The notes below the pieces were generated by a model that did no database searches, was not told where the DNA came from, and saw nothing but the letters and a program-made list of their open reading frames with translations. This document shows positions 1,155-48,782 of a stretch of 64,000 bases of DNA, piece by piece (the first letter of the stretch is position 1; each line of letters starts with the position of its first letter). The position numbers and the translations under genes were made by a program. Source of the DNA: Sphingomonas daechungensis (lineage in GTDB: Bacteria; Pseudomonadota; Alphaproteobacteria; Sphingomonadales; Sphingomonadaceae); assembly GCF_014489495.1 (NCBI RefSeq), contig NZ_CP060780.1, forward strand, positions 186,001 through 250,000, given 5' to 3'.

Positions 1155-1210
1155 TCGGGATCCCGCCGCGGTGCCTTCTCTGGATCCACAGTTAGGAGTT
1201 AGGTCACAAA

Positions 1211-1222
1211 TTGTATCCCATT
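1211..1222. promoter_or_regulatory. Putative operator, thr operon site 1
   Basis: The element TTGTATCCCATT belongs to the recurring palindrome family (idealised TTGGGATCCCAA) found at several amino-acid promoters in this window. It sits about 55 bases upstream of a possible -35 box (TTGACG, 1266-1271). The binding protein is unknown; FCD-type GntR regulators bind sites of this general shape, but this is only inference. It is one of the weaker copies. Confidence 0.35.
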
Positions 1223-1265
1223 TGTCACTGGACGTTGGAATTCCCCGCGATATCCTCCTTGCGGG

Positions 1266-1305
1266 TTGACGGCGGCGCATCATCCGTGCATTTTTGGGAT
1301 CCAAT
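1266..1305 (+). promoter_or_regulatory. Putative thr operon promoter with overlapping operator (site 2)
   Basis: A -35-like TTGACG (1266-1271) is followed after 17 bases by CATTTT (1289-1294). A close match to the shared palindrome, TTGGGATCCAAT (1294-1305), lies over the -10 end and the expected start point, where a bound repressor would block initiation. The -10 box is poor, so the promoter call is tentative; the palindrome itself is clear. The stretch 1155-1375 holds no gene that I can support. Confidence 0.45.
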
Positions 1306-1375
1306 GCAGAACAGCGTGACCTCAACTGCCGCACTTGCGCTCGACAGCGCAGCGGTTTTGCACGCCCAACGCACG

Positions 1376-4235: not shown

Positions 4236-5548
4236 AGTTCGTCAGCACCCGAGGCCAGTCGCCTGCAGCAACGCTATCGGAAGCCCTTCTGAGCGGTGCC
4301 GCACCTGACGGCGGCCTTTACATGCCCGAGGTGCTTCCGAAAGCCGAACTGGACTTGCTTAATCCTGATGAGCCACTGGCAGAGTTCGCGGCGCGCCTCT
4401 TGCGACCTTTCTTTGCCGGCGACGAACTGGAGCCGCATCTCCGATCGATTTGCGAGCAATCCTTCGATTTCCCGATTAACCTCGTCGTCCCCAATCTGGC
4501 CAAACCGCAGTTCCACGCGCTGGAGCTGTTCAATGGACCGACCGGGGCGTTCAAGGATTTCGGCGCGCGATTCCTGATGAATTGCTTCGAGCGGCTTGCC
4601 GGGCGCGGACCCCTGACGGTTCTCGTCGCAACCTCTGGTGATACCGGCGGCGCAGTTGGGTGCGCTGCCGACGGACGCAAGTCGGTTCGCACTGTTATCC
4701 TGTTTCCGAAAGGGCGCGTCTCCGCTTTCCAGGAGCATCAGCTGACATGCTGGGGCGAAAACGTCACGGCGATCGAAATCGAGGGCGATTTCGACGATTG
4801 CCAACGGCTCGTGAAAGCCGCCTTCTGCAACCCGGCGCTGTGTGCCGAGCATCGATTGACATCCGCCAATTCGATCAATTTCGGAAGGCTGTTGCCCCAG
4901 CTTGCCTATGTCGCGCACGCGGCTTTGGCCAGGTTCAAGGCTACAGGCATGAAGCCCGGTTTCGTGGTTCCCAGCGGCAATCTCGGACACGGCTTCGCGG
5001 TACTCATGGCGAAGGCGATGGGCCTGCCGATCGGTCCGATCGTACTCGCCACCAATGCGAACAAAACGCTCAAGGACTGGCACGACAAGGGGCGCTACCA
5101 GCCTCGCGCCTCGGTCCAGACGCTGGCCAACGCCATGGACGTCGGCAATCCCAGCAACTTTGAGCGCCTGTCCGCGCTGGGTGTACAGCCGAGCGAACTC
5201 AGGGTGGAGCTGGTCACCGACGGTCAAATCCGGACACGGATCAAGGCTGTTTACGAAACGAGCGGTTACGTCGCATGCCCACATACGGCGACGACGTTCG
5301 AAGCCTGGTGGCGCTTGCCGAAAGACGAGCGCTCGGATCGCGACTGGATCGCCTTGGCGACGGCACATCCCTACAAGTTTGCGGACATGGTCGAGCCCCT
5401 GATCGGACGCGAAATCGAACCGACGGCGGCGCTTGCGAGCATTCTCAACCGGCGGACCTACAAGGTTCGAAGCGCGCCCGAGCTGGACGATCTTGCGCAG
5501 GTCCTCGAGGGGTCCGCCCTAATGGGGCAGCGTCACTGCGCCATGTGA
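4232..5548 (+). CDS. thrC: Threonine synthase
   Basis: PLP enzyme converting O-phosphohomoserine to threonine; last gene of the thr operon. 438 residues in one intact frame. The PLP lysine lies in [15 protein letters not shown]; the phosphate-binding loop is [23 protein letters not shown] is a family signature. ATG overlaps the thrB stop (ATGA). The 3' end overlaps the convergent ilvD end by 16 bases, so there is no room for a dedicated terminator between them. Confidence 0.95.
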
Positions 5549-7186
5549 AGCGGAGCCAACGAGCGCTGCATATTTGGCAAATGCCCCGTCGATTCAGGCG
5601 ATACGAGCCAATCGTTCGCGGCACGGGACGATAGGTCGGCAGTAGTTTCGACTACGCGCGAGTTCACGTCGATGACGATGCTGTCGCCGGTCTCGAGCAG
5701 TGCAATCGGACCTCCTCGCGCGGCTTCGGGCGAGATGTGGCCGACCATGAAACCGTAGGTTGCGCCGGAGAAGCGGCCATCGGTGATCAGCGCCACTGAG
5801 TCACCCAACCCTCGGCCCTGGATAGCGGCGGTAACGCCGAGCATCTCCCGCATGCCGGGGCCGCCGACAGGACCCTCACCGCGGATCACAACGACGTCGC
5901 CGGGCTCGATCAGTCCGTGCGTCACAGCGTCGAACGCAGCCTCTTCGCCGTCATAGACTTTTGCTGGTCCTTCGAACCGAAGCTTCCCGTGACCAGCGAG
6001 CTTCACGACGCAGCCCTCCGGCGCGATGTTGCCGTAGCAGATGCCGAACCCGCCTCGCTCCTTGATAGGCGCATCAGCGGTGACGATGACTTCCTGGCCT
6101 GGCGTCTCATCAGCATCGCGGAAATGATCGAATAGCGATTTGCCGGTAACCGTTGGAGCGTCGGAGATCAGTCCGGCTTCCATCAGTCGACGCCCAGTAA
6201 CGCCGTTCCACCCGCGGCGCTCATGTCGGGCGCCATGAAGCGTCCGCCCGGCTTCAAATCGGCGATGACGGGGGTGGAGCGGGAAACCTCATCGAAGATA
6301 TCGATGTTGAACGCGCTCTCGGAAATGCCGGCCTCTCGGGCGATCGCCAGCAGGTGCAGGACAAGGTTGGTCGATCCCGCAGTTGCTGTTCCCGCAACCG
6401 CTGCGTTTCGCAGGCTCTCGGCCGTGATGAAGCTTCTCGCATTGCGCCCTGCGCGCAGTGCCTCGAGCGCCAACCTGCCCGCTTCGACGGCAGCCTCCCT
6501 CTTGTCGGGGTGAACGGCGGGAATATCGTTCAGACCCACCGGCGACAGGCCAAGGAAGCTCATTGCCAATGCCATCGTATTGGCCGTGAACTGACCTCCG
6601 CAAGCGCCGGCGCCCGGACAGGCCGCCTGCTCGACCGTCTGCAACTCCTGATCGCCGATCGCGCCCGCGCTGTGCGCCCCGACTGCTTCGAAAACGTCCT
6701 GGATGGTGATCGCCTTGGGCCCCAGGTGACCAGGCATGATCGAGCCGCCGTAAAGTACGACACTCGGCAAATCGAGGCGAGCCGCTGCCATAGCTGCAGC
6801 CGGAATGGTCTTGTCGCAGCCGACGATGAACACGACGCCGTCTAGCGAGTGGCCCCGAACGGCAAGTTCCGCGGAGTCCGCGATGACTTCGCGGCTCATC
6901 AGGGACGCACGCATGCCACGCGTTCCCATGGCAATACCGTCGGTTACGACGATCGTATTGAACTCGATCGGGGTCCGCCCGCCTCTTCGATCCCGCGAGC
7001 GGCATGCTGGGCCAGATCGCGCAGGTGCATGTTGCACGGCGTTACGGTCGAAAAGCTGTGAACGATCGCGATCAGCGGCTTCGAAAGCGCTCTCGCATTG
7101 AAACCGGCAGCGTGAAGCATTGCTCTCGCCGGGGCACGCGACGGCCCTTCGACGACTTCGCGCGACGGCAAACCCTTGGAACTCAT
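5533..7186 (-). CDS. ilvD: Dihydroxy-acid dehydratase
   Basis: Iron-sulfur enzyme of the Ile/Val pathway acting after IlvC. The frame changes near 6985 and near 6190 are each repaired by one G, giving about 551 residues. Cluster ligands are visible as [20 protein letters not shown] and [18 protein letters not shown] 7186 gives the usual N-terminus ([20 protein letters not shown]). The gene is divergent from ilvC; their 379-base gap holds both promoters and the ilv leader peptide. The C-terminus (after QRSLAPL) is ordinary in length. Confidence 0.92.
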
Positions 7187-7198
7187 GGCTGAACCTGT

Positions 7199-7227
7199 AG
7201 CATTTTGGATACAATTGTCCCTCTCAA
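7199..7227 (-). promoter_or_regulatory. Putative ilvD promoter with operator
   Basis: Read on the minus strand: TTGAGA (7227-7222), 17-base spacer, AATGCT (7204-7199), putting the start about 6-12 bases before the ilvD ATG. The palindrome-family element, TTGGATACAATT on the plus strand (7205-7216), fills the spacer and touches the -10 box, a classic repressor position. Confidence 0.45.
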
Positions 7228-7284
7228 GCACGGTCCGGCGGACAAGAAAAGCAGCAATTCCGCCTCTAACAGGCCAATTTGCTC

Positions 7285-7335
7285 TTGCTAGCCGTGTCGC
7301 GATGCAGCATAACAATGATCAGATTGGATCCCAAA
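7285..7335 (+). promoter_or_regulatory. Putative ilvC-operon promoter and operator
   Basis: TTGCTA (7285-7290), 17 bases, CATAAC (7308-7313). The shared palindrome ATTGGATCCCAAA (7323-7335) would lie just after the transcription start, ahead of the leader peptide. Together with the ilvD site about 110 bases away it makes a pair of operators across the divergent region. Confidence 0.45.
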
Positions 7336-7365: not shown

Positions 7366-7476
7366 ATGCTTCTGAATTCGAAGCTCATTGCGAACGACTT
7401 TACGGACACGTCGATCGACGTGCGCCTCAACGTGCTTACGATCGTACTTATTACCCTTGATAGGGGAGCGGGCTAG
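7366..7476 (+). CDS. ilvL: Leu/Ile/Val-rich leader peptide of the ilv-leu operon (attenuator)
   Basis: A 36-residue frame whose C-terminal half reads [19 protein letters not shown]: a dense run of Leu, Val and Ile codons with two Thr, then stop at 7474-7476. ATG 7366 is the likely start; ATG 7315 and GTG 7420 are in the same frame. It is followed by an intrinsic terminator (7512-7545) and then ilvC, the standard layout of ilv/leu attenuation. The last codons contain GGGGAGCGGG (7463-7472), which can pair over 10 bases with CCCGCTCCCC (7513-7522) of the terminator stem, so a ribosome reaching the stop codon would cover the antiterminator strand and permit termination. Confidence 0.8.
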
Positions 7477-10302: not shown

Positions 10303-10553
10303 CCGAGCGCCTGACCGTCGAATTCACGCCGGCCGAGGGAGCCGTCATCCGCGTTCTCGGCGTGGTCGAGCGGCGCGGATACGTGCTGCGCGGGCTGTCC
10401 ATGAAGGAGAAAGCCGACACGGCGTCACTCGTGATCGACGTCGAGCCCCGTGAGGCGAGCCGACGCGTGCCGGTCTTGGCTCAGCAGCTCGCGCGGCTGG
10501 TCGATGTTCGTTCCGTTTCCCTCGCAGCCCGCGACGCAGGATCGCTCGCATGA
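10299..10553 (+). CDS. ilvM: Acetolactate synthase small subunit, short IlvM-type (single ACT domain)
   Basis: An 84-residue protein starting with GTG 10299, overlapping ilvB by 4 bases and leuA by 4 bases. Residues 3-75 look like one ACT domain: LTVEFTPAEGAVIRVLGVVE, then GYVLRGLSMKE and a VDVRSVSL strand. It lacks the C-terminal half of typical IlvN/IlvH (about 160 residues) and has the length of E. coli IlvM. In E. coli the IlvM-type enzyme is Val-insensitive; whether that holds here cannot be seen. Assignment rests on position and ACT-like pattern. Confidence 0.8.
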   Translation: MTERLTVEFTPAEGAVIRVLGVVERRGYVLRGLSMKEKADTASLVIDVEPREASRRVPVLAQQLARLVDVRSVSLAARDAGSLA

Positions 10554-12130
10554 CCCAGGTTCGCATCTTCGACACGACGCTTCGCGATGGCGAGCAGGCG
10601 CCTGGCTTCTCCATGACGCCCGAAGCCAAGCTGCGCATGGCCAAGGCCCTTGCCGCGCTCAAGGTCGATGTCATCGAGGCAGGCTTTGCGGCCGCATCCC
10701 CCGGCGATGCTCAATCGATCATGGAGATCGCTGGTACGATCGAGGGCCCAGTCATCTGCTCACTGGCCCGGGCCGTACGCGGTGACATTCTGGCGTCGGC
10801 CAGCGCCTTGGCACCTGCTCCACGCAAGCGCCTTCACCTATTCCTCGGCACCAGCCCGATTCACCGCGAAGCCAAGCTTCAGATGACGCGGGACCAGGTG
10901 CTCGAGGCGATCCGTACGTCGATCGCCTTTGGCCGGGACTATTTCGACGACATCGAATTCTCTGCGGAAGACGCAATCCGCACCGAGCGCGAGTTCCTGG
11001 CCGAGGCGCTATCGCTGGCGGCCGCGGAAGGCGCGACAACGCTGAACGTGCCCGATACCGTCGGCTACACGACGCCCGAAGAGACCTACGATCTTTTCCG
11101 CTTCCTCGACGGCGCCGTCGATCGCCCGAAAGGCATGATCTTCTCCACCCATTGCCACGACGACCTCGGGATGGCGGTCGCCAATTCGCTGGCTGCGGTC
11201 CGCGCAGGGGCGCAGCAGGTCGAATGCGCAGTGAACGGCATCGGCGAACGCGCGGGGAATTGCGCACTTGAAGACGTGGTGATGGCGCTGCGCACGCGCG
11301 GCAACCTCTACAACGCGACCACCAACGTCGACACGACCAAGATCATGGCGGCCAGCCGGACGCTCTCGCAGATCACCAACACGCCGCCGCCGCGCAACAA
11401 GTCCATCGTCGGCGCAAATGCCTTCGCTCATGAAAGCGGGATTCACCAGCACGGCGTGCTCCAGAACCGCGAGACGTACGAGATCATGAAGCCGGAGGAC
11501 ATCGGCCTCTCCACGGAAGGCATCGTGCTCGGCAAGCATAGCGGGCGCCACGCACTGGCAGCCCGTGCCAAGGCGCTCGGATACATGCTTGAAGGCGAAC
11601 AGCTCGACGAGACTTTCGCCGCGTTCAAAATCGTTGCCGACGAGGTCGGGACCGTCGACACGGCACGCCTGGTCGCTCTGCTTTCCGAGGCGCAGACGCA
11701 TCGGCCGCAGGACCTGTGGAAGCTGTCCAAGCTCGATATCCGGGCGCCTCTCTCCGTGAGCGCCTGGCCCGTGGTTCGCGTGGAGCTGGAGCATGGCGAA
11801 CGGGGGCGCGTGACCGACATTGCCAGTGCTCCTGGAGCACTCGATGGAGCCTTTGCGGCGGTCAGCCAGATGATCGGCGTCCCCGCGCGCGTCGACAGCC
11901 TGGAGATGCAGTACATCGCGGCCGATCCCGATCAGGATGCGCCCGATGGACAGGGCGCCAGCGTGCTCGTCGAAATGACCATTGAAGTGGACGGAGAGAT
12001 CTTCGCCGGTCGTGCTCGTTCTCGCGACATCCTGCCCTGCTGCGTCTCGGCCTACATCGACGCCGCCAGCAACGCGCAGGCGGTTCGCGACCTGCGGGAA
12101 ATGAACGCCAGGAAGGATCAGGCCGCGTGA
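10550..12130 (+). CDS. leuA: 2-isopropylmalate synthase
   Basis: Acetyl-CoA condensation with 2-oxoisovalerate, first committed leucine step. 526 residues, intact. The TIM-barrel domain begins FDTTLRDGEQAPGFSM; metal ligands lie in FSTHCHDDLGMAVANS; GERAGNCALEDVVMAL and HESGIHQHGVL are family signatures. Residues from about 390 form the C-terminal allosteric domain (LDIRAPLSVSAWPVVRVELE, then GRVTDIASAPGALDGAF), usually the site of Leu feedback. A separate protein at 48148-48567 resembles just this domain. Overlaps both neighbours by 4 bases. Confidence 0.96.
   Translation: MTQVRIFDTTLRDGEQAPGFSMTPEAKLRMAKALAALKVDVIEAGFAAASPGDAQSIMEIAGTIEGPVICSLARAVRGDILASASALAPAPRKRLHLFLGTSPIHREAKLQMTRDQVLEAIRTSIAFGRDYFDDIEFSAEDAIRTEREFLAEALSLAAAEGATTLNVPDTVGYTTPEETYDLFRFLDGAVDRPKGMIFSTHCHDDLGMAVANSLAAVRAGAQQVECAVNGIGERAGNCALEDVVMALRTRGNLYNATTNVDTTKIMAASRTLSQITNTPPPRNKSIVGANAFAHESGIHQHGVLQNRETYEIMKPEDIGLSTEGIVLGKHSGRHALAARAKALGYMLEGEQLDETFAAFKIVADEVGTVDTARLVALLSEAQTHRPQDLWKLSKLDIRAPLSVSAWPVVRVELEHGERGRVTDIASAPGALDGAFAAVSQMIGVPARVDSLEMQYIAADPDQDAPDGQGASVLVEMTIEVDGEIFAGRARSRDILPCCVSAYIDAASNAQAVRDLREMNARKDQAA

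Positions 12131-15211: not shown

Positions 15212-15234
<23 letters not shown>
14672..15234 (+). CDS. leuD: 3-isopropylmalate dehydratase, small subunit (one frameshift)
   Basis: Small 'swivel' subunit completing LeuCD. The first frame (to about 14938) has [16 protein letters not shown] and [22 protein letters not shown]; adding one C restores [20 protein letters not shown] and the C-terminal half to 15234. Corrected length is about 187 residues, slightly short of the usual 200. The loss looks like a CC run read as one C, so I do not call it a pseudogene. Confidence 0.9.
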
Positions 15235-19824
<4,590 letters not shown>

Positions 19825-19830
19825 AGTCTG

Positions 19831-21299
19831 ATGGGTAAGCCGACCGGATTCCTCGAAGTCGAACGCCAGGATCGCAAATATGCGCCAGTTGCCGAGCGCG
19901 TAACGAACTGGCGCGAGTTTACGCAGGAGCCGGGCGCGGAAGCCGTTTCCAAGCAGGCCTCTCGTTGCATGGATTGCGGCATCCCATTCTGCCACTCGGG
20001 CTGCCCGGTGAACAACCTGATCCCGGACTGGAACGACCTCGTCTACAAGGATGACTGGCAGGCGGCGATCGAACGGCTGCACCAGACAAACAACTTCCCG
20101 GAAGTCACCGGCCGCATTTGCCCCGCGCCATGTGAGGCAGCGTGCACGCTCAACATCGACGACGTACCGGTGACGATCAAATCGATCGAGGGCGAGATTG
20201 CCGACCGTGCCTTCCGAGAAGGCTGGATAAAGCCGCAATGCGCGCCTCGCGGAACCGGGAAGCGCATTGCCATCGTCGGCTCCGGCCCTGCGGGGTTAGC
20301 CTGCGCACAGCAGCTGGCGCGCATGGGCCATGCACCGACGGTGTTCGAGAAGTCGGACCGTATCGGCGGTCTGCTTCGCTACGGCATCCCGGATTTCAAG
20401 CTAGACAAGTCCGTCATCGACCGCCGCATGGAGCAGATGGAAGTCGAAGGCGTCATCTTCCGGACGAACATGGAAGTCGGCGTGACCGTGTCGGTCGAGC
20501 GGCTGCTGGACGATTATCACGTCCTCGTCCTCGCTGGCGGCGCCGAGCAGCCGCGCGACCTCCCAGTGCCGGGCCGCGAGCTCGACGGCGTCCATTTCGC
20601 GATGGATTTCCTCAGTCAGCAGAACAAGCGCAACGCCGGCGACGCGGAGGAAAAGGCCGCTGCCGGAGGCACGATCAGTGGGCACGGCAAGCATGTCGTC
20701 GTGATCGGCGGCGGCGATACCGGTTCCGATTGCATCGGTACCTCCTTCCGTCAGGGCGCGGCTTCGGTGACGCAGCTCGAGATCCTGCCCCAGCCCCGCT
20801 CCACGAGAACAAGGCGCTGACCTGGCCCAATTGGCCAATGAAGCTGCGGACGTCTTCGTCGCAAGAAGAGGGCGCCGAGCGCGAGTTTTCCGTAGTGACC
20901 ACCGCCTTCGTCGGTGAAAGCGGACAGGTTCAGGCTCTGCAGTGCGCTCGCACCGAAATGGTTTCAGGTCCGGACGGGCGGATGACGATCCAGCCGGTCG
21001 CCGGCACGGAGTTCGAGATCAAGGCGGACCTCGTCTTGCTGGCGATGGGTTTCTTGGGCCCGCGCAAGGCCGGCGCGGTCGACAGTTCGCAAGTCGAGCT
21101 CACGCCTCAGGGCAATGTGAAGGCGGCGATGACCGACTATCGAACCAGCGGTGATCGCATCTTCGCATGCGGTGACATGCGCCGCGGACAGTCGCTGGTT
21201 GTCTGGGCCATCCGCGAGGGCCGCGATTGCGCTGAAGCGGTCAATGCCTTCCTGACCGCGGAGCAGAAGGCCGAACCGGTACTGGTGCGCTCGGCCTAG
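19831..21299 (+). CDS. gltD: Glutamate synthase, small subunit (one frameshift)
   Basis: FAD/NADPH subunit feeding electrons to GltB. Frame one (19831 to about 20800) carries the N-terminal 4Fe-4S cysteines ([20 protein letters not shown] and [11 protein letters not shown]), the FAD loop [20 protein letters not shown] and the NADPH loop [15 protein letters not shown]. One C added to the CCCC run near 20800 restores the rest ([17 protein letters not shown], the C-terminal FAD signature). Corrected length 489. It begins 6 bases after gltB and its stop overlaps the convergent lrp stop by 4 bases. Confidence 0.93.
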
Positions 21300-21754
21300 A
21301 CCTCCGTCACCGGATAGGCCGTCGTGTACTTCACGCGCTCCATGGCAAAGCGCGACGTCACGTTCTTCAGCGGGACCATCGCGATCAGGCGCTGATAGAA
21401 GGAATCGACCGCTGCCATGTTCGGCACGGTGATGCGCAGCATGTAGTCTACGTCCCCGGCCATGCGGTAGATTTCCATCACTTCCGGCATTTCCGTGACC
21501 GCCGAAGCGAAGCCGTCGAGCCAGTCCTTCGAATGGTCCCCCGTCTCGATCTCAACGAAGACCGTGAGGCCAAGGCCGAGGGCGTCCGGATCGACCAGCG
21601 CCACCCGCTTCGTAATCACGCCAGCGTCCTGCAGCTTTTGAATCCGCCGCCAGCACGGCGTTTGCGACAGGTTCACCTGCTTCGCGATGTCCGCCACCGA
21701 CATGGACGCATCGTCCTGAAGGATGGCGAGGATCTTGCGGTCGGTCGAATCCAT
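21296..21754 (-). CDS. lrp: Lrp/AsnC-family transcriptional regulator
   Basis: 152 residues: an N-terminal helix-turn-helix (DRKILAILQDDASMSVADIA, QVNLSQTPCWRRIQKLQDAG) and a C-terminal ligand-sensing RAM domain (AGDVDYMLRITVPNMAAVDS). It is convergent with gltD and divergent from the cys operon. Members sense amino acids, commonly Leu, and regulate operons such as gltBD in E. coli; position next to gltD and the ilv-leu genes fits such a role, but targets are not shown by the sequence. A good Lrp-type site lies just upstream (21774-21788), suggesting autoregulation. Confidence 0.93.
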   Translation of the reverse strand: MDSTDRKILAILQDDASMSVADIAKQVNLSQTPCWRRIQKLQDAGVITKRVALVDPDALGLGLTVFVEIETGDHSKDWLDGFASAVTEMPEVMEIYRMAGDVDYMLRITVPNMAAVDSFYQRLIAMVPLKNVTSRFAMERVKYTTAYPVTEV

Positions 21755-30172: not shown

Positions 30173-30178
30173 CATGCT
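30150..30178 (+). promoter_or_regulatory. Possible trp (aroF-trpEG) promoter inside the end of cysI
   Basis: TTGACC (30150-30155), 17 bases, CATGCT (30173-30178). The predicted start would lie at or just before the second in-frame ATG of the leader peptide (30186). No copy of the shared palindrome is visible here. Read-through from the cys operon is also possible. Confidence 0.35.
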
Positions 30179-30266
30179 GCTCACGATGATTCAGGTTCGC
30201 ACCGCAACGATTTGGTGGTGGCGCTGGTCCCCAGCCATCGATGCGGCGCGCCCAGTGAACGGATAG
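30174..30266 (+). CDS. trpL: Trp leader peptide upstream of aroF-trpEG (attenuator)
   Basis: A 30-residue frame containing TIWWWRWSP: four Trp codons within five residues, three in tandem, then stop TAG at 30264. ATG 30186 would give a 26-residue form. It is followed by a GC hairpin with T tract (30305-30328) and then aroF. Rhizobial trpE leaders have the same IWWW pattern. GCGGCG (30243-30248), downstream of the Trp codons, can pair with CGCCGC (30307-30312) of the terminator as an antiterminator. Confidence 0.88.
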   Translation: MLLTMIQVRTATIWWWRWSPAIDAARPVNG

Positions 30267-44503: not shown

Positions 44504-45389
44504 AGCATCATCTTTTCGATGGGCACGACGAGGATGGCGGATGCGCCCGCCCCTTCAGCTCCTGCAGGGTCTCCCAGAAGACGTTCTCCTGACAGACTGC
44601 ATGCACCGCGAAATGGCCGGGGCGTCCATGCAGCGGCAGGACAGTCGGCGCTTCGGCTCCGGGCAACAGGGCAGTGATGCGACTGAGCGCCTCCTCCGAG
44701 GCGTTGAGCATGATGTACTTCGATTCCTTGGTCGCGAGTACACCATCGATGCGGCTGAGGAGCTGGTCGGCGATGGCTTTCCGCTCGTCGTCGAGCGGTT
44801 TGCGCGTCCGGATCAGGACGGCCTGGCTCTTGAGGACAGTATCGACCGGCCGAAGACCATTGGCCTCCAAAGTCGCGCCGGTCGAAACGAGGTCGCAAAT
44901 GTAGGTGGCGATCTCGAGACGTGGCGCCAGCTCCACGGCGCCCTTCATCTGAACGACCTCGGCTTCGATCTTTCGATCGTCGAGGAAACGGCGGAGGAGA
45001 CGCGGATAGGACGTCGCGATGCGTTGCCGGGCCAGAGACTCGGGGCCCGAGTAGTTCAGGCGCTCTGGCGCGGCGATGCGGAGGCTGCACTGACCGAAGC
45101 CAAGCTCCGCAAGGACATCGAACCCGCGCTCGTTCGAACCGAGCGCAAATTCTTCAAGGACGTTCTGGCCGACGATTCCCAGCTCGCAGGCGCCATCGCT
45201 GACGAACGTCGGAATGTCGTCGTCACGGACGAACATGAGGTCGGCGGGGAAATTGCCGGCGCGCGCGCTCAGGCTGTTCTTGCCCGCCTCAATGCGAAGA
45301 CCGGACTCGCGAAGAAGATCCCGGCTCAGCTCAGAAAGACGTCCGGACCGCTGCAGCGCGATGTGGATCCGGCTCCGGTCAACCAGCAT
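44500..45389 (-). CDS. hisG: ATP phosphoribosyltransferase, long form (one frameshift at the 3' end)
   Basis: First and feedback-controlled step of His synthesis. Start ATG 45389 (LVDRSRIHIALQRSGRLSEL) overlaps the end of the yerC-like gene by 11 bases. Catalytic part: FVRDDDIPTFVSDGACELGI, ATSYPRLLRRFLDDRKIEAE, ICDLVSTGATLEANGLRPVD. The last 75 residues form the PII-like regulatory domain of HisG-long, so no HisZ is needed. One G lost near 44560 hides the true end (ILVVPIEKMML). Corrected length 296. Confidence 0.94.
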
Positions 45390-45696
45390 CGACACTCTCC
45401 AGCGCATCGATGGCAGACCGATACCCCTGGTGTGGCTCCTGCCGAAGGAATCTCCCGACACGCACGATCGTCGTCGTGCTGACGCCGGTGCCATCGTGGA
45501 TTTCGCGGTAGGACAGCTCCGTTCCATCGAGCAGCCGAGCGACGTGCCAGCGCTCCGCCAGCGCCCGCAGCTCGGACGGGGTGCAGAGGTCGCGAAGGAG
45601 CCGCTGCATGTCTGCGCGGCTTCGCGGCGTCAGGAGCGCGTCGCAAAGCTGATCGGTGAGCGCATCAACGTCGCGGGTGGGACTAAGTGGCGGCAT
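45379..45696 (-). CDS. TrpR-family regulator of the YerC/YecD type, likely his repressor
   Basis: 105 residues, all helical in appearance, with the TrpR-like core TPRSRADMQRLLRDLCTPSE, LRALAERWHVARLLDGTELS and YREIHDGTGVSTTTIVRVGR (helix-turn-helix). First gene of the minus-strand his operon, overlapping hisG. TrpR-family members of this type control histidine genes in some Firmicutes (called HisR); a similar role here is inference from position. A near-repeat TA(C/G)AACGTG occurs twice upstream. Confidence 0.85.
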   Translation of the reverse strand: MPPLSPTRDVDALTDQLCDALLTPRSRADMQRLLRDLCTPSELRALAERWHVARLLDGTELSYREIHDGTGVSTTTIVRVGRFLRQEPHQGYRSAIDALESVDAG

Positions 45697-46305: not shown

Positions 46306-46764
46306 CAGTGCCCAGGATGTAGCGCAGCGCCAGAAGGTAGCCTTCCGTGCCCAGCCCGAGATCACCCCTTTTGCCGCCGCGGTGGTCTTGGTCTCGGCGC
46401 GCCAGCTCTCCTTGCGCGCGTGGACGTTGCTGATGTGGACCTCCACGACGGGTGCCGAGCAAGCCAGCAAGGCGTCCAGGACCGCGACGGAATAGGAGTA
46501 GCCGGCGGGGTTGATCACGATGCCGTTAGAGTGTCGGGCCGCCTGGATCTGATCGATCAGGCTCCCTTCGCTGTTGGTCTGGTGGAATTCCAGCGTCACG
46601 CCCGCGGACTTGCACAGGTCCAGGCACGCGCGCTCGACGTCCGCCAAGGTCGCGGTTCCGTAAACCTCGGGCTCCCGCTCTCCGAGGAGATTGAGGTTCG
46701 GCCCGTTCAAAACGTGGATTGTCGCCGGCTTGCGACTTTTGGATCCCGAACCAGGCTTCGCCAG
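46289..46764 (-). CDS. aroQ: 3-dehydroquinate dehydratase, type II (one frameshift; start uncertain)
   Basis: Third step of the shikimate path. The type II signature IHVLNGPNLNLLGEREPEVY is clear, followed by FHQTNSEGSLIDQIQAARHS, INPAGYSYSVAVLDALLACS and EVHISNVHARKESWRA. One G lost near 46357 shifts the frame; repair gives GLGTEGYLLALRYILG and a stop at 46289. There is no ATG, GTG or TTG at the expected N-terminus; the frame is open to CTG 46764, which has GGGAGGG before it. The start codon may be misread or unusual. Confidence 0.88.
46739..46750. promoter_or_regulatory. Putative operator at the aroQ 5' end
   Basis: TTGGATCCCGAA is a palindrome-family copy. It lies either just upstream of, or inside, the first codons of aroQ depending on which start is used. 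About 95 bases from the lysA-side copy. Confidence 0.35.
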
Positions 46765-46833
46765 GACGCCCTCCCTCTTCTTAAATGCCAGTGAATGTCG
46801 GGTATCCACCGGATTTTGGCAATGCAATCCAAT

Positions 46834-46845
46834 TTGGGATCCCTT
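46834..46845. promoter_or_regulatory. Putative operator between aroQ and lysA
   Basis: TTGGGATCCCTT, a near-perfect copy, lies 33 bases before the lysA start and about 70 bases from aroQ, in the divergent gap. CAATCC just before it extends the AT-rich flank. No clear promoter boxes could be assigned. Confidence 0.5.
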
Positions 46846-46878
46846 GCGCTCAGCGGGAAGCTGTGCGTTGGGGCGGCG

Positions 46879-48131
46879 ATGGATCATTTCGAGATCAGGA
46901 ACGGCGAGCTCTTCTGTGAGGAAGTCCCGCTGGCGGAAATCGCGGTAGCGGTCGGCACTCCCGCCTACGTCTATTCGACCGCCACGATGCTCCGTCATGC
47001 CGAGGTGTTGAAGTCTTCGCTTGGAGGCCTTGGCGATCCCCTCATTGCCTATGCGGTCAAGGCGAACCCGAATCCCGCAGTGCTGGCGACGCTCGCGCAG
47101 GCGGGCCTGGGAGCGGACGTCGTTTCGGGCGGCGAGATCCAGCGCGCACGGGCCGCCGGCATCCCCGCGGACAGGATCGTCTTCTCCGGTGTCGGCAAGA
47201 CCGCGGAGGAGATGCGGCTCGCGCTTGCCGAAGGTGTCTACCAGTTCAACCTCGAATCTATGGCTGAAGCGGAGACCCTGTCGGCGATTGCAACGTCGCT
47301 GGGCGTCACCGCGCCGGTGGCGTTCAGGGTTAATCCGGACGTATCGGCCGGCACCCACGCGAAAATCACGACCGGCATTGCCGAGAGCAAGTTCGGCATC
47401 GCGATCGGCGAAGCGCCCGCAGCCTATGCGCATATCGCGAATCTGCCCGGACTCTCCGCGCAAGGCGTAGCCGTTCACATTGGCAGCCAGCTCACCGACC
47501 TTGCTCCGCTGGAGCGAGCATTCGTCAGGGTCGGCGACCTGCTCAGCGACCTGCGCTCGCAGGGACTTGAGCTTCGCGTCGCCGATCTCGGTGGAGGACT
47601 TGGCGTTCCGTACAACCCCGACCTGCCCGCACCCCAGGCCCTCAGGAATATGGCGAGATGGTGCGGCGCGTCACGCGCGATTGGAAGGAGCGGCTGGTTT
47701 TCGAGCCAGGACGCCTGATCGTCGGAAACGCTGGTGTACTTCTGTCCGGGGTGGTCCGCATCAAGCCGGGCGCCGTCCACCCGTTCGTGATCGTCGATGC
47801 GGCGATGAACGATCTGATCCGGCCCGCGCTTTACGACGCGTGGCATCAGATCGACGGGGTCAGGCCCACCGGCGATCGCTGGATCGCCAACGTTGTCGGG
47901 CCTGTCTGCGAATCCGGCGACACCTTCGCGACCGCCCGAGTCATGGACCGGATGGTCGAAGGAGACCTGCTGGTTTTCAGGACTGCTGGAGCTTACGCGG
48001 CGGCGATGTCGAGCACTTACAACTCGCGCCCACTGACGCCGGAAGTTCTCGTGAACGGCGATCGTTGGTGCGTGGTCAGGCCCCGCGTCGATGTGATCGA
48101 TATTTGTCCGGCCGACCAGCCCCGTGGCTGA
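46879..48131 (+). CDS. lysA: Diaminopimelate decarboxylase (frameshifted near 47640)
   Basis: PLP enzyme making lysine from meso-diaminopimelate. ATG 46879 gives DHFEIRNGELFCEEVPLAEI, the usual start. PLP lysine in IAYAVKANPNPAVLATLAQA; SGGEIQRARAAGI; HIGSQLTDLAPLERAF; DLGGGLGVPYNPDLPAP. Two compensating indels near 47635-47650 separate this from the C-terminal barrel (LVFEPGRLIVGNAGVLL, CESGDTFATARVMDR, AYAAAMSSTYNSRPLTPEVL, NGDRWCVVRPR). Corrected length about 418. Monocistronic as far as visible. Confidence 0.94.
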
Positions 48132-48147: not shown

Positions 48148-48567
48148 CTAAGCGGTATACCCGGAAGACCTGGCGATGGCGTCGAGCCAAGCCTCGAGCG
48201 AGCATCGGACGAGATCCACGCCCGAACTGCTCCCGGAGAAGGTCCTGCCTTTGTGATCGATTTCAACCTCGATCGTGATTGGCAAAGCACCCTCTTCCTC
48301 CGGCGGACCGGACCGCACGTTGTAACTGAGAAGGTGCGGGCTCACGCCCACGATGTGGCTCGCGGCCACGAATGCCGCATCGAACGCGCCGGGGGCGGTC
48401 CCGATATCGGTCACACGACCTCTTTCGGGATGCTCAAGCTCCACGCGCGCAACGGGCCATGCATCCTTCAACACCGGCGACCGAATATCAATTCGCCGCA
48501 GGCGCCACTGCCGGGCATCCAGATCCTGAACCGTCGCGGCCTCTTCAGTGATCGTCGTACTGTCCAT
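48148..48567 (-). CDS. Stand-alone LeuA-type allosteric (dimerisation/regulatory) domain protein
   Basis: 139 residues from ATG 48567 (another in-frame ATG at 48603 adds 12). From residue 20 it matches the C-terminal regulatory domain of the LeuA encoded at 10550-12130: RIDIRSPVLKDAWPVARVEL against LDIRAPLSVSAWPVVRVELE, then GRVTDIGTAPGAFDAAFVAA against GRVTDIASAPGALDGAFAAV, then a shared strand pattern to the end. No catalytic barrel is present and none precedes it, so it is not a truncated leuA in place. It may sense leucine or a related ligand and act on LeuA or another partner. Two palindrome-family operators lie upstream. Convergent with lysA. Confidence 0.8.
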   Translation of the reverse strand: MDSTTITEEAATVQDLDARQWRLRRIDIRSPVLKDAWPVARVELEHPERGRVTDIGTAPGAFDAAFVAASHIVGVSPHLLSYNVRSGPPEEEGALPITIEVEIDHKGRTFSGSSSGVDLVRCSLEAWLDAIARSSGYTA

Positions 48568-48626
48568 AGTTCGCCCACCAGTCGCAGAGCGAAGCAAACG
48601 CATTAGTGGCGCTCGGCTCTCGCGTC

Positions 48627-48638
48627 GGGATACAATAA
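48627..48638. promoter_or_regulatory. Putative operator upstream of the LeuA-domain gene (proximal)
   Basis: CGGGATACAATA resembles the ilvD copy (GGATACAATT) and lies 60 bases before ATG 48567. It is imperfect on its left arm, so it counts as a weak family member. Confidence 0.3.
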
Positions 48639-48686
48639 TTAGCGGCCGAACGCCATTTCGGACGCTATCGGGCGACAGAAGAGATT

Positions 48687-48698
48687 TTGGGACCCCAA
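48687..48698. promoter_or_regulatory. Putative operator upstream of the LeuA-domain gene (distal)
   Basis: TTGGGACCCCAA has both five-base arms of the shared palindrome intact and differs only in the central pair. It lies 120 bases before ATG 48567 and 36 bases from the tRNA fragment. Confidence 0.45.
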
Positions 48699-48733
48699 GG
48701 CTGCAGCATCGTTCGACGCCGATCGGGGAAAAA

Positions 48734-48782
48734 TGGTGGGCGTGGCAAGGATTGAACTTGCGACCCCTGCGATGTCAACACG
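48734..48782 (-). tRNA. tRNA-Val(GAC) 3' half, probable integration-site remnant
   Basis: Read on the minus strand it ends CACGCCC-A-CCA with a perfect T arm (GCAAG, TTCAATC, CTTGC) and an anticodon loop TTGACAT (anticodon GAC, Val), followed by the 3' anticodon strand CGCAG. The 5' half does not fit: no GGGCGTG acceptor strand, no complete D arm, and the 5' anticodon strand pairs poorly. So only about 49 bases of the gene remain. Elements that integrate in tRNA genes leave exactly such a 3' copy at one end and an intact tRNA at the other, here expected beyond the right edge of the window. Confidence 0.7.

Follow-up and report, generated by a model that had tools for sequence, protein, structure and literature searches.

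In some enzymes, regulation is exerted via a separate non-catalytic chain, as is the case of IlvN for IlvB. Allosteric domains are usually thought to have been added to enzymes by fusion. For LeuA, the excerpts available from a structural study place the leucine pockets at the interface of the paired regulatory domains, where a loop closes over the bound leucine (PMC11057210). Mixed dimers of the yeast enzymes Leu4 and Leu9 display a leucine sensitivity of their own, according to the accessible part of the corresponding report (PMC7418496). For a stand-alone LeuA regulatory domain or a stand-alone PF08502 protein, no description was found in open-licence papers at the level of titles and abstracts; the original prediction knew of no described role for such an isolated domain in this group.

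Here, we describe a free-standing LeuA regulatory-domain protein, termed SA, which is encoded in a window of 64,000 nucleotides (the whole stretch of DNA that was analysed) from Sphingomonas daechungensis. What is new here is that a known regulatory domain occurs as a separate chain. Overall, the original interpretation is partly supported: SA is a real, selected and LeuA-linked free regulatory domain, with a putative role in trans on LeuA.

The SA locus and its surroundings

48148..48567, minus strand: SA, a LeuA regulatory domain standing alone as a protein of 139 aa (151 aa if started at 48603), identified from the ORF, PF08502, orthologues and the structural model
10550..12130, plus strand: LeuA, the sole HMGL-like match of the genome and proposed partner of SA; residues 387-505 align with SA
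48734..48781, minus strand: 3' fragment (48 nt) of tRNA-Val(GAC), the distal boundary of the integrated island that now parts SA from the intact tRNA

Counted from the first ATG, the SA frame spans 48148-48603 on the minus strand, and counted from the preferred start it spans 48148-48567. The start at 48567 is preferred because the orthologue in G084, another species of the genus, begins alike (MSDATITNE vs MDSTTITEE). Upstream of SA, approximately 165 bp without a supported gene are followed by the tRNA-Val fragment and then by a protein kinase gene on the opposite strand. On the downstream side lysA converges with SA, its frame being broken in this assembly. A promoter scan revealed no sigma-70-like site and a single terminator-like site, which is at the level of shuffled sequence, and a plasmid search with SA gave no matches.

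The window contains an amino-acid gene block of approximately 47 kb (800-48131) with thr, ilv, leu, glt, cys, aro, trp, his, aroKQ and lysA genes. Here, leuA, lysA, aroKQ, hisG and a gene of the Trp-repressor family were named by Pfam and most others by eye from the ORFs. Split frames are present in lysA (46795-48131) and, judged by eye, in ilvD, gltB and gltD (5533-6914, 15212-21299). The latter three are unbroken long ORFs in G007, a further species of the genus, as is ilvD in G084, and the split frames are probably assembly indels.

The island, which is approximately 29 kb in size, is inserted in tRNA-Val(GAC) and extends from window position 48734 to G000:C1:263826 of the host genome (G000), past the end of the window. 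The intact tRNA is located at G000:C1:263752-263826, and its 3' part is copied exactly (48 nt) at 48734-48781. A phage-type integrase is found near the tRNA end of the island, and genes for a protein kinase and a UvrD-like helicase are found near the SA end.

A LeuA regulatory domain without a catalytic barrel

The original prediction held that SA matches the C-terminal regulatory domain of the LeuA encoded in the same window and that it has no catalytic part. Both points are borne out, and SA is confirmed as a complete, free-standing LeuA regulatory domain. In the HMM search against PF08502 that had been proposed as a check, SA reaches 36 bits (E 7.9e-9) and thereby passes the curated cut-off of 24.9 bits; its orthologues in G084 and G007 lie above the cut-off as well (35.9 and 36.1 bits). 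No Pfam family besides PF08502 was found in SA at E 0.001. In a pairwise comparison with the regulatory domain of the window LeuA, 52 of 124 aligned columns are identical (42%, E 2e-29), and all motif pairs that had been quoted, such as DIRSP/DIRAP and AWPVARVELE/AWPVVRVELE, are present in this alignment.

An HMGL-like catalytic barrel is absent from the SA ORF. The original prediction had named a catalytic domain missed on the minus strand just upstream as a finding that would overturn it; this was rejected, since no barrel was found upstream and the search of the whole genome, which is rated 86.6% complete, yielded LeuA as the single HMGL-like match. The host genome contains two PF08502 places, SA and LeuA. 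Furthermore, one HMGL-like match per genome, namely LeuA, was obtained in all six LeuA-containing genomes searched (six of the nine found in the genus), including all three with SA.

Predicted fold and pocket motifs

The SA model (pLDDT 89.4) displays the strand-helix order EEEH-EEEH, with the elements E22-29, E39-46, E50-57, H61-73, E78-86, E97-105, E108-116 and H119-138. The same element order is present in the model of the window LeuA regulatory domain (pLDDT 83.6). The top structural match of the SA model is 3f6h, the LiCMS regulatory domain with isoleucine (Z 14.7, rmsd 2.8, 115 residues), and 3f6g, also the LiCMS regulatory domain, reaches Z 14.4. The LeuA structures 3hps, 3fig, 3hpz and 1sr9 from M. 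tuberculosis match at Z 12.9-13.1 over 115-116 residues; among these, 3fig is leucine-bound (Z 13.0, 116 residues). The VIA-align rows below rank 6 (RAD52 and ribosomal proteins; Z <9, approximately 60 residues) were set aside as a common arrangement and not kinship. Using the sequence only, the best solved chain for SA was 3f6g at a weak E of 0.13.

In the pocket motifs, SA carries APGA where GxGP is canonical (ahead of the first helix) and ALP where DAQ is canonical (in the loop), and its residue 127 is a W where the conserved residue is a Y. GxGP is present in 39 of 41 non-genus rows of the alignment and the DAQ loop in all 38 outgroup rows. APGA is present in 12 of 12 rows of SA and genus LeuA, compared to 0 of 41 other rows, and it recurs in four added LeuA of the same type, which belong to other genera within the family. 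The measured pocket-loop stretch of SA (12 residues) is shorter than that of the genus LeuA (18) and longer than that of the other rows (10). SA fails the canonical pocket-motif test (GxGP, DAQ) and passes the PF08502 cut-off; these motifs are common in PF08502 and stand outside the formal definition of the family. Judged by these features, SA is a divergent PF08502 member. Given its departures from the canonical pocket motifs, leucine binding by SA is less certain than the original prediction had implied. As the motifs of both SA and the genus LeuA are changed and their loop lengths differ by six residues, the effector of either protein is unreadable from sequence.

Distribution and neighbourhoods

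SA is found in three of 71 genus genomes, all within the nine that contain LeuA, and in none of the 62 others. Here, a genome was counted as LeuA-containing if the regulatory-domain match lies in a frame of LeuA length (516-639 aa; in G003 the frame reaches the contig end). When the full-length LeuA was used as the query, it was detected in the same nine of 61 genus genomes examined, and two further genomes gave weak partial matches only. The chance that all three SA genomes fall among the nine is 0.0015, which is a naive value, since the genomes share ancestry and are not independent samples. This co-occurrence is only consistent with SA being a trans-acting LeuA subunit. Six of the nine LeuA-containing genomes are without SA, thus LeuA does without it. 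With LeuA found in nine of 71 genomes, the LeuA route to leucine may be closed to most members of the genus.

Outside the genus, a search of the class with an SA profile, in which no more than 10 first-look candidates were scored in many genomes, gave 33 matches in 385 genomes, and all 33 lie in frames of LeuA length (439-608 aa). In the order, PF08502 was present in 349 of 396 genomes (a sample that excluded G084 and G007), with one match each and two in G000, G333 and G171. Many of 150 genomes of the phylum have two or three PF08502 matches, and the four short PF08502 frames among the matches listed are located at contig ends, or probably so by locus length. Stand-alone regulatory domains are thus rare in the part of the one phylum that was searched.

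Several candidates for further stand-alone genes were rejected. The second PF08502 match in G333, which is located behind the LeuA of that genome and covers 53 profile positions, is unconvincing, as are those in G171, G938 and G941, for which contig ends are inferred. The third PF08502-like match of G084, at C1:1218624 (E 1.5e-4 with the SA profile), was taken as chance; it is opposite an ORF that we take to be RadC-like.

The neighbours of SA differ in all three genomes (lysA; a hexapeptide-repeat transferase; a ParC-like gene, assigned by eye), and the SA gene has thus moved. No gene besides SA itself is shared at these places, all three of which are outside the leu operon.

Furthermore, G084 encodes a second free-standing PF08502 protein (C2:4131-4520, 29.9 bits), which stands outside the SA clade. 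Its neighbours are genes for a RidA-family protein, a DAO-type FAD oxidoreductase, an aldehyde dehydrogenase, an MFS transporter, a DUF885 protein and an FMN-dependent dehydrogenase. The position of this protein within the tree is uncertain (end branch 3.9), and in 298 family genomes no stand-alone relative besides SA was matched. It shows that PF08502 domains either were freed more than once or diverged far after their release.

Selection on SA

The SA orthologues in G084 and G007 and the SA of the window share 74-77% protein identity pairwise. The dN/dS ratios are 0.12 (G000-G084), 0.09 (G000-G007) and 0.19 (G084-G007), which are rough values because the synonymous distances are near saturation. 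In these pairs, 39-52% of the third codon positions are identical, in comparison to 83-88% of the second positions. A neutral simulation matched to the third-position divergence (1000 runs per pair) resulted in a mean protein identity of 0.14-0.23 with a maximum of 0.41, versus the observed 0.76-0.79, and in 2.4-3.9 stops on average, versus none in SA. A decayed leuA duplicate without selection on its frame, which had been put forward as a possible refutation, was rejected on the basis of these ratios (0.09-0.19), the simulation and the intact reading frames.

Between G000 and G084, SA is 76% identical versus 97% for the LeuA regulatory domain; SA is constrained yet evolves faster than its counterpart in LeuA. 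In G007, judged by eye, the in-frame start is GTG and a well-placed upstream ATG is out of frame, so that the start of this copy may be truncated or impaired.

Origin of SA

In a tree of 58 rows, the three SA form a group (100/100), which is joined with the nine genus LeuA at 99/99. After addition of the four further LeuA of the same type from other family genera, a group of 16 members is obtained (100/99). The genomes of these four have one PF08502 match each and hence no SA. The common grouping together with the shared APGA shows that SA descends from this LeuA type, and SA is best explained as a paralogue of the regulatory domain of its own-clade LeuA that has turned into a separate protein.

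The stem of SA is long (1.64 and 1.18 changes per column in the two trees). An AU test with the genus LeuA as one group apart from SA gave p 0.237. The two trees resolve the order of the three SA differently, which leaves both vertical descent and transfer as possible routes. Among the named LeuA retrieved, those of Robiginitomaculum (56-57%) and Maricaulis (52%) are the nearest. Of the LeuA aligned from the family, the four of the same type align to the window LeuA at 71-74%, that of G277 at 50% and eight others at 25-42%.

Taken together, the dN/dS ratios, the co-occurrence, the trees and the lone HMGL-like match support a stand-alone regulatory domain that is selected and tied to LeuA.

Operator-like sites

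A palindrome-like motif around TTTGGGATCCCAAA is present in pairs before the thr and the ilv-leu genes, both in this genome and in G084. In G007, the ilv genes are preceded by a strong site (20.9 bits) and a weak one (7.8 bits). Nine such sites served to train a weight matrix, and the eight best matches of this matrix in the window form four pairs:

1209..1306 (sites at 1209 and 1293): operator site pair before the thr genes, training sites
7203..7335 (sites at 7203 and 7322): operator site pair before the ilv-leu genes, training sites
46737..46846 (sites at 46737 and 46833): operator-like pair between the divergent aroQ and lysA, 14.2 and 12.4 bits, untrained
48624..48637: operator-like site upstream of SA, 11.9 bits, weight matrix
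48686..48699: operator-like site upstream of SA, 11.7 bits, weight matrix

Five untrained matches exceed 11 bits, four of them in the aroQ/lysA and SA pairs, where 1.5 are expected per window. The sites of SA are weaker than the copies at thr and ilv (19.1-20.4 bits), and no site exceeding 6 bits was detected ahead of the SA genes of G084 and G007. SA had been described as lying behind two copies of a shared operator. The motif is indeed real and two copies are located upstream of SA; none were found at the SA genes of G084 and G007, thus co-regulation of SA with the amino-acid genes is suggested for this genome only.

Two proteins of the window are candidate regulators of the shared operator: a Trp-repressor-family protein (45379-45696; PF01371, 74 bits), which overlaps the start of hisG, and an Lrp/AsnC-type protein (21296-21754). 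ORFs resembling leader peptides are located at 1304-1429 (Thr/Ile/Met-rich, thr genes), 7420-7476 (Leu/Val/Ile-rich, ilv-leu genes) and 30174-30266 (WWWRW, aro/trp genes), and these look like attenuators.

Possible roles of SA

We tentatively favor SA being a trans-acting partner of LeuA via pairing of regulatory domains, although we hold this at somewhat below an even chance. Here, SA would pair with, or compete for, the regulatory domain of a LeuA chain, and the mixed SA-LeuA regulatory unit would alter the strength of the LeuA shut-off by leucine or another effector. The shared operator would couple the production of SA in this genome to that of the thr, ilv-leu and aro/lys genes. The complete domain, the selection, the co-occurrence with LeuA, the single HMGL-like match per genome, the shared clade with APGA and the operator-like pair all speak for this partnership, and the yeast Leu4-Leu9 pair (PMC7418496) sets a precedent for a change of leucine sensitivity through mixed pairing. 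Furthermore, the LiCMS regulatory domain 3f6h was solved isolated, thus such a domain can exist alone. On the other side, the optional and divergent nature of SA, its location apart from the leu operon among differing neighbours, the operator not being found upstream in G084 and G007, and the changed pocket motifs argue against a partnership with LeuA. Its long stem and its lower conservation in comparison to the LeuA regulatory domain suggest that SA may no longer pair with LeuA. That a second feedback domain, separately encoded and separately regulated, tunes LeuA in trans in a genus mostly without LeuA is conceivable, and we advance it with slightly greater reserve.

The known isolated regulatory domain was crystallised with its effector, as stated in the entry titles of 3f6g and 3f6h. 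SA might likewise be a self-sufficient homodimeric sensor or buffer of leucine, of another branched-chain acid or of an alpha-keto acid, acting on a partner other than LeuA. The location of SA outside the leu operon and in differing neighbourhoods would fit, and the protein at G084 C2:4131-4520 with its catabolic-looking neighbourhood indicates that domains of this kind can exist apart from LeuA. However, within the genus SA is present only in LeuA-containing genomes, no other gene is common to its three neighbourhoods and its pocket motifs are altered, which leaves such a sensor unlikely, if still worth considering. Pairing with LeuA could also be purely inhibitory. SA would then act as a dominant-negative or capping subunit, which pairs with the LeuA regulatory domains and blocks the enzyme dimer at any leucine level. 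This would agree with the meeting of the regulatory domains at the LeuA dimer interface, as depicted in the excerpts of PMC11057210, with work cited in the available part of a review (PMC10464499), where removal of the regulatory domain disrupts substrate binding, and with the single HMGL-like match per genome in the six genomes searched. Nevertheless, induction alongside the leucine genes via the operators would be self-defeating and the conservation of the pairing surface of SA is putative, which renders a capping role improbable.

The presence of SA in merely three of 71 genomes and the G007 copy, which by eye is without a good in-frame start, would be expected of the remnant of a leuA duplicate that is being lost. 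This is strongly disfavored, as dN/dS is well below 1 in all three pairs, the identity is far above the neutral expectation, stops are absent and the predicted fold is intact. The broken frames of lysA and other window genes, together with the completeness rating of 86.6% for the host genome, might even point to a piece of LeuA cut off by assembly errors. Such an artefact is refuted by the orthologues: G084 and G007, both rated 99% complete, carry the same stand-alone ORF elsewhere, and a second HMGL match is present in none of the three SA genomes.

SA appears to have taken the course opposite to fusion, an allosteric domain freed from its enzyme and kept by selection alongside the parent LeuA. 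If SA acts on LeuA, it would represent a simple system to study how feedback control becomes detached and distributed over several chains, as well as a possible tool to tune leucine output. An allosteric domain would then have turned into an exchangeable regulatory subunit.

Comparison with known systems

The LeuA regulatory domain (PF08502) resembles SA in fold and family, and the LeuA of the same genome shares the clade-specific motifs. In contrast, SA is free-standing without the HMGL barrel, its pocket loop comprises 12 residues and W127 replaces Y. The regulatory domain of Leptospira citramalate synthase (3f6g, 3f6h) is presumably a laboratory construct, whereas SA is a natural gene. Like SA, this domain stands without the enzyme; it is the best structural match and has its effector bound according to the entry titles. 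SA shares 20% identity with it.

HisZ and IlvN contain domains other than that of SA and are regular components of their enzymes; SA, in contrast, is optional. Here, SA is proposed to work similarly to HisZ, which, as summarised in the available part of PMC9734150, regulates HisGS as a non-catalytic chain. A likeness is further proposed to Leu4-Leu9 of yeast, for which the accessible part of PMC7418496 reports that a paralogue shifts the leucine sensitivity by mixed pairing; both yeast partners are full enzymes, whereas SA is the domain alone.
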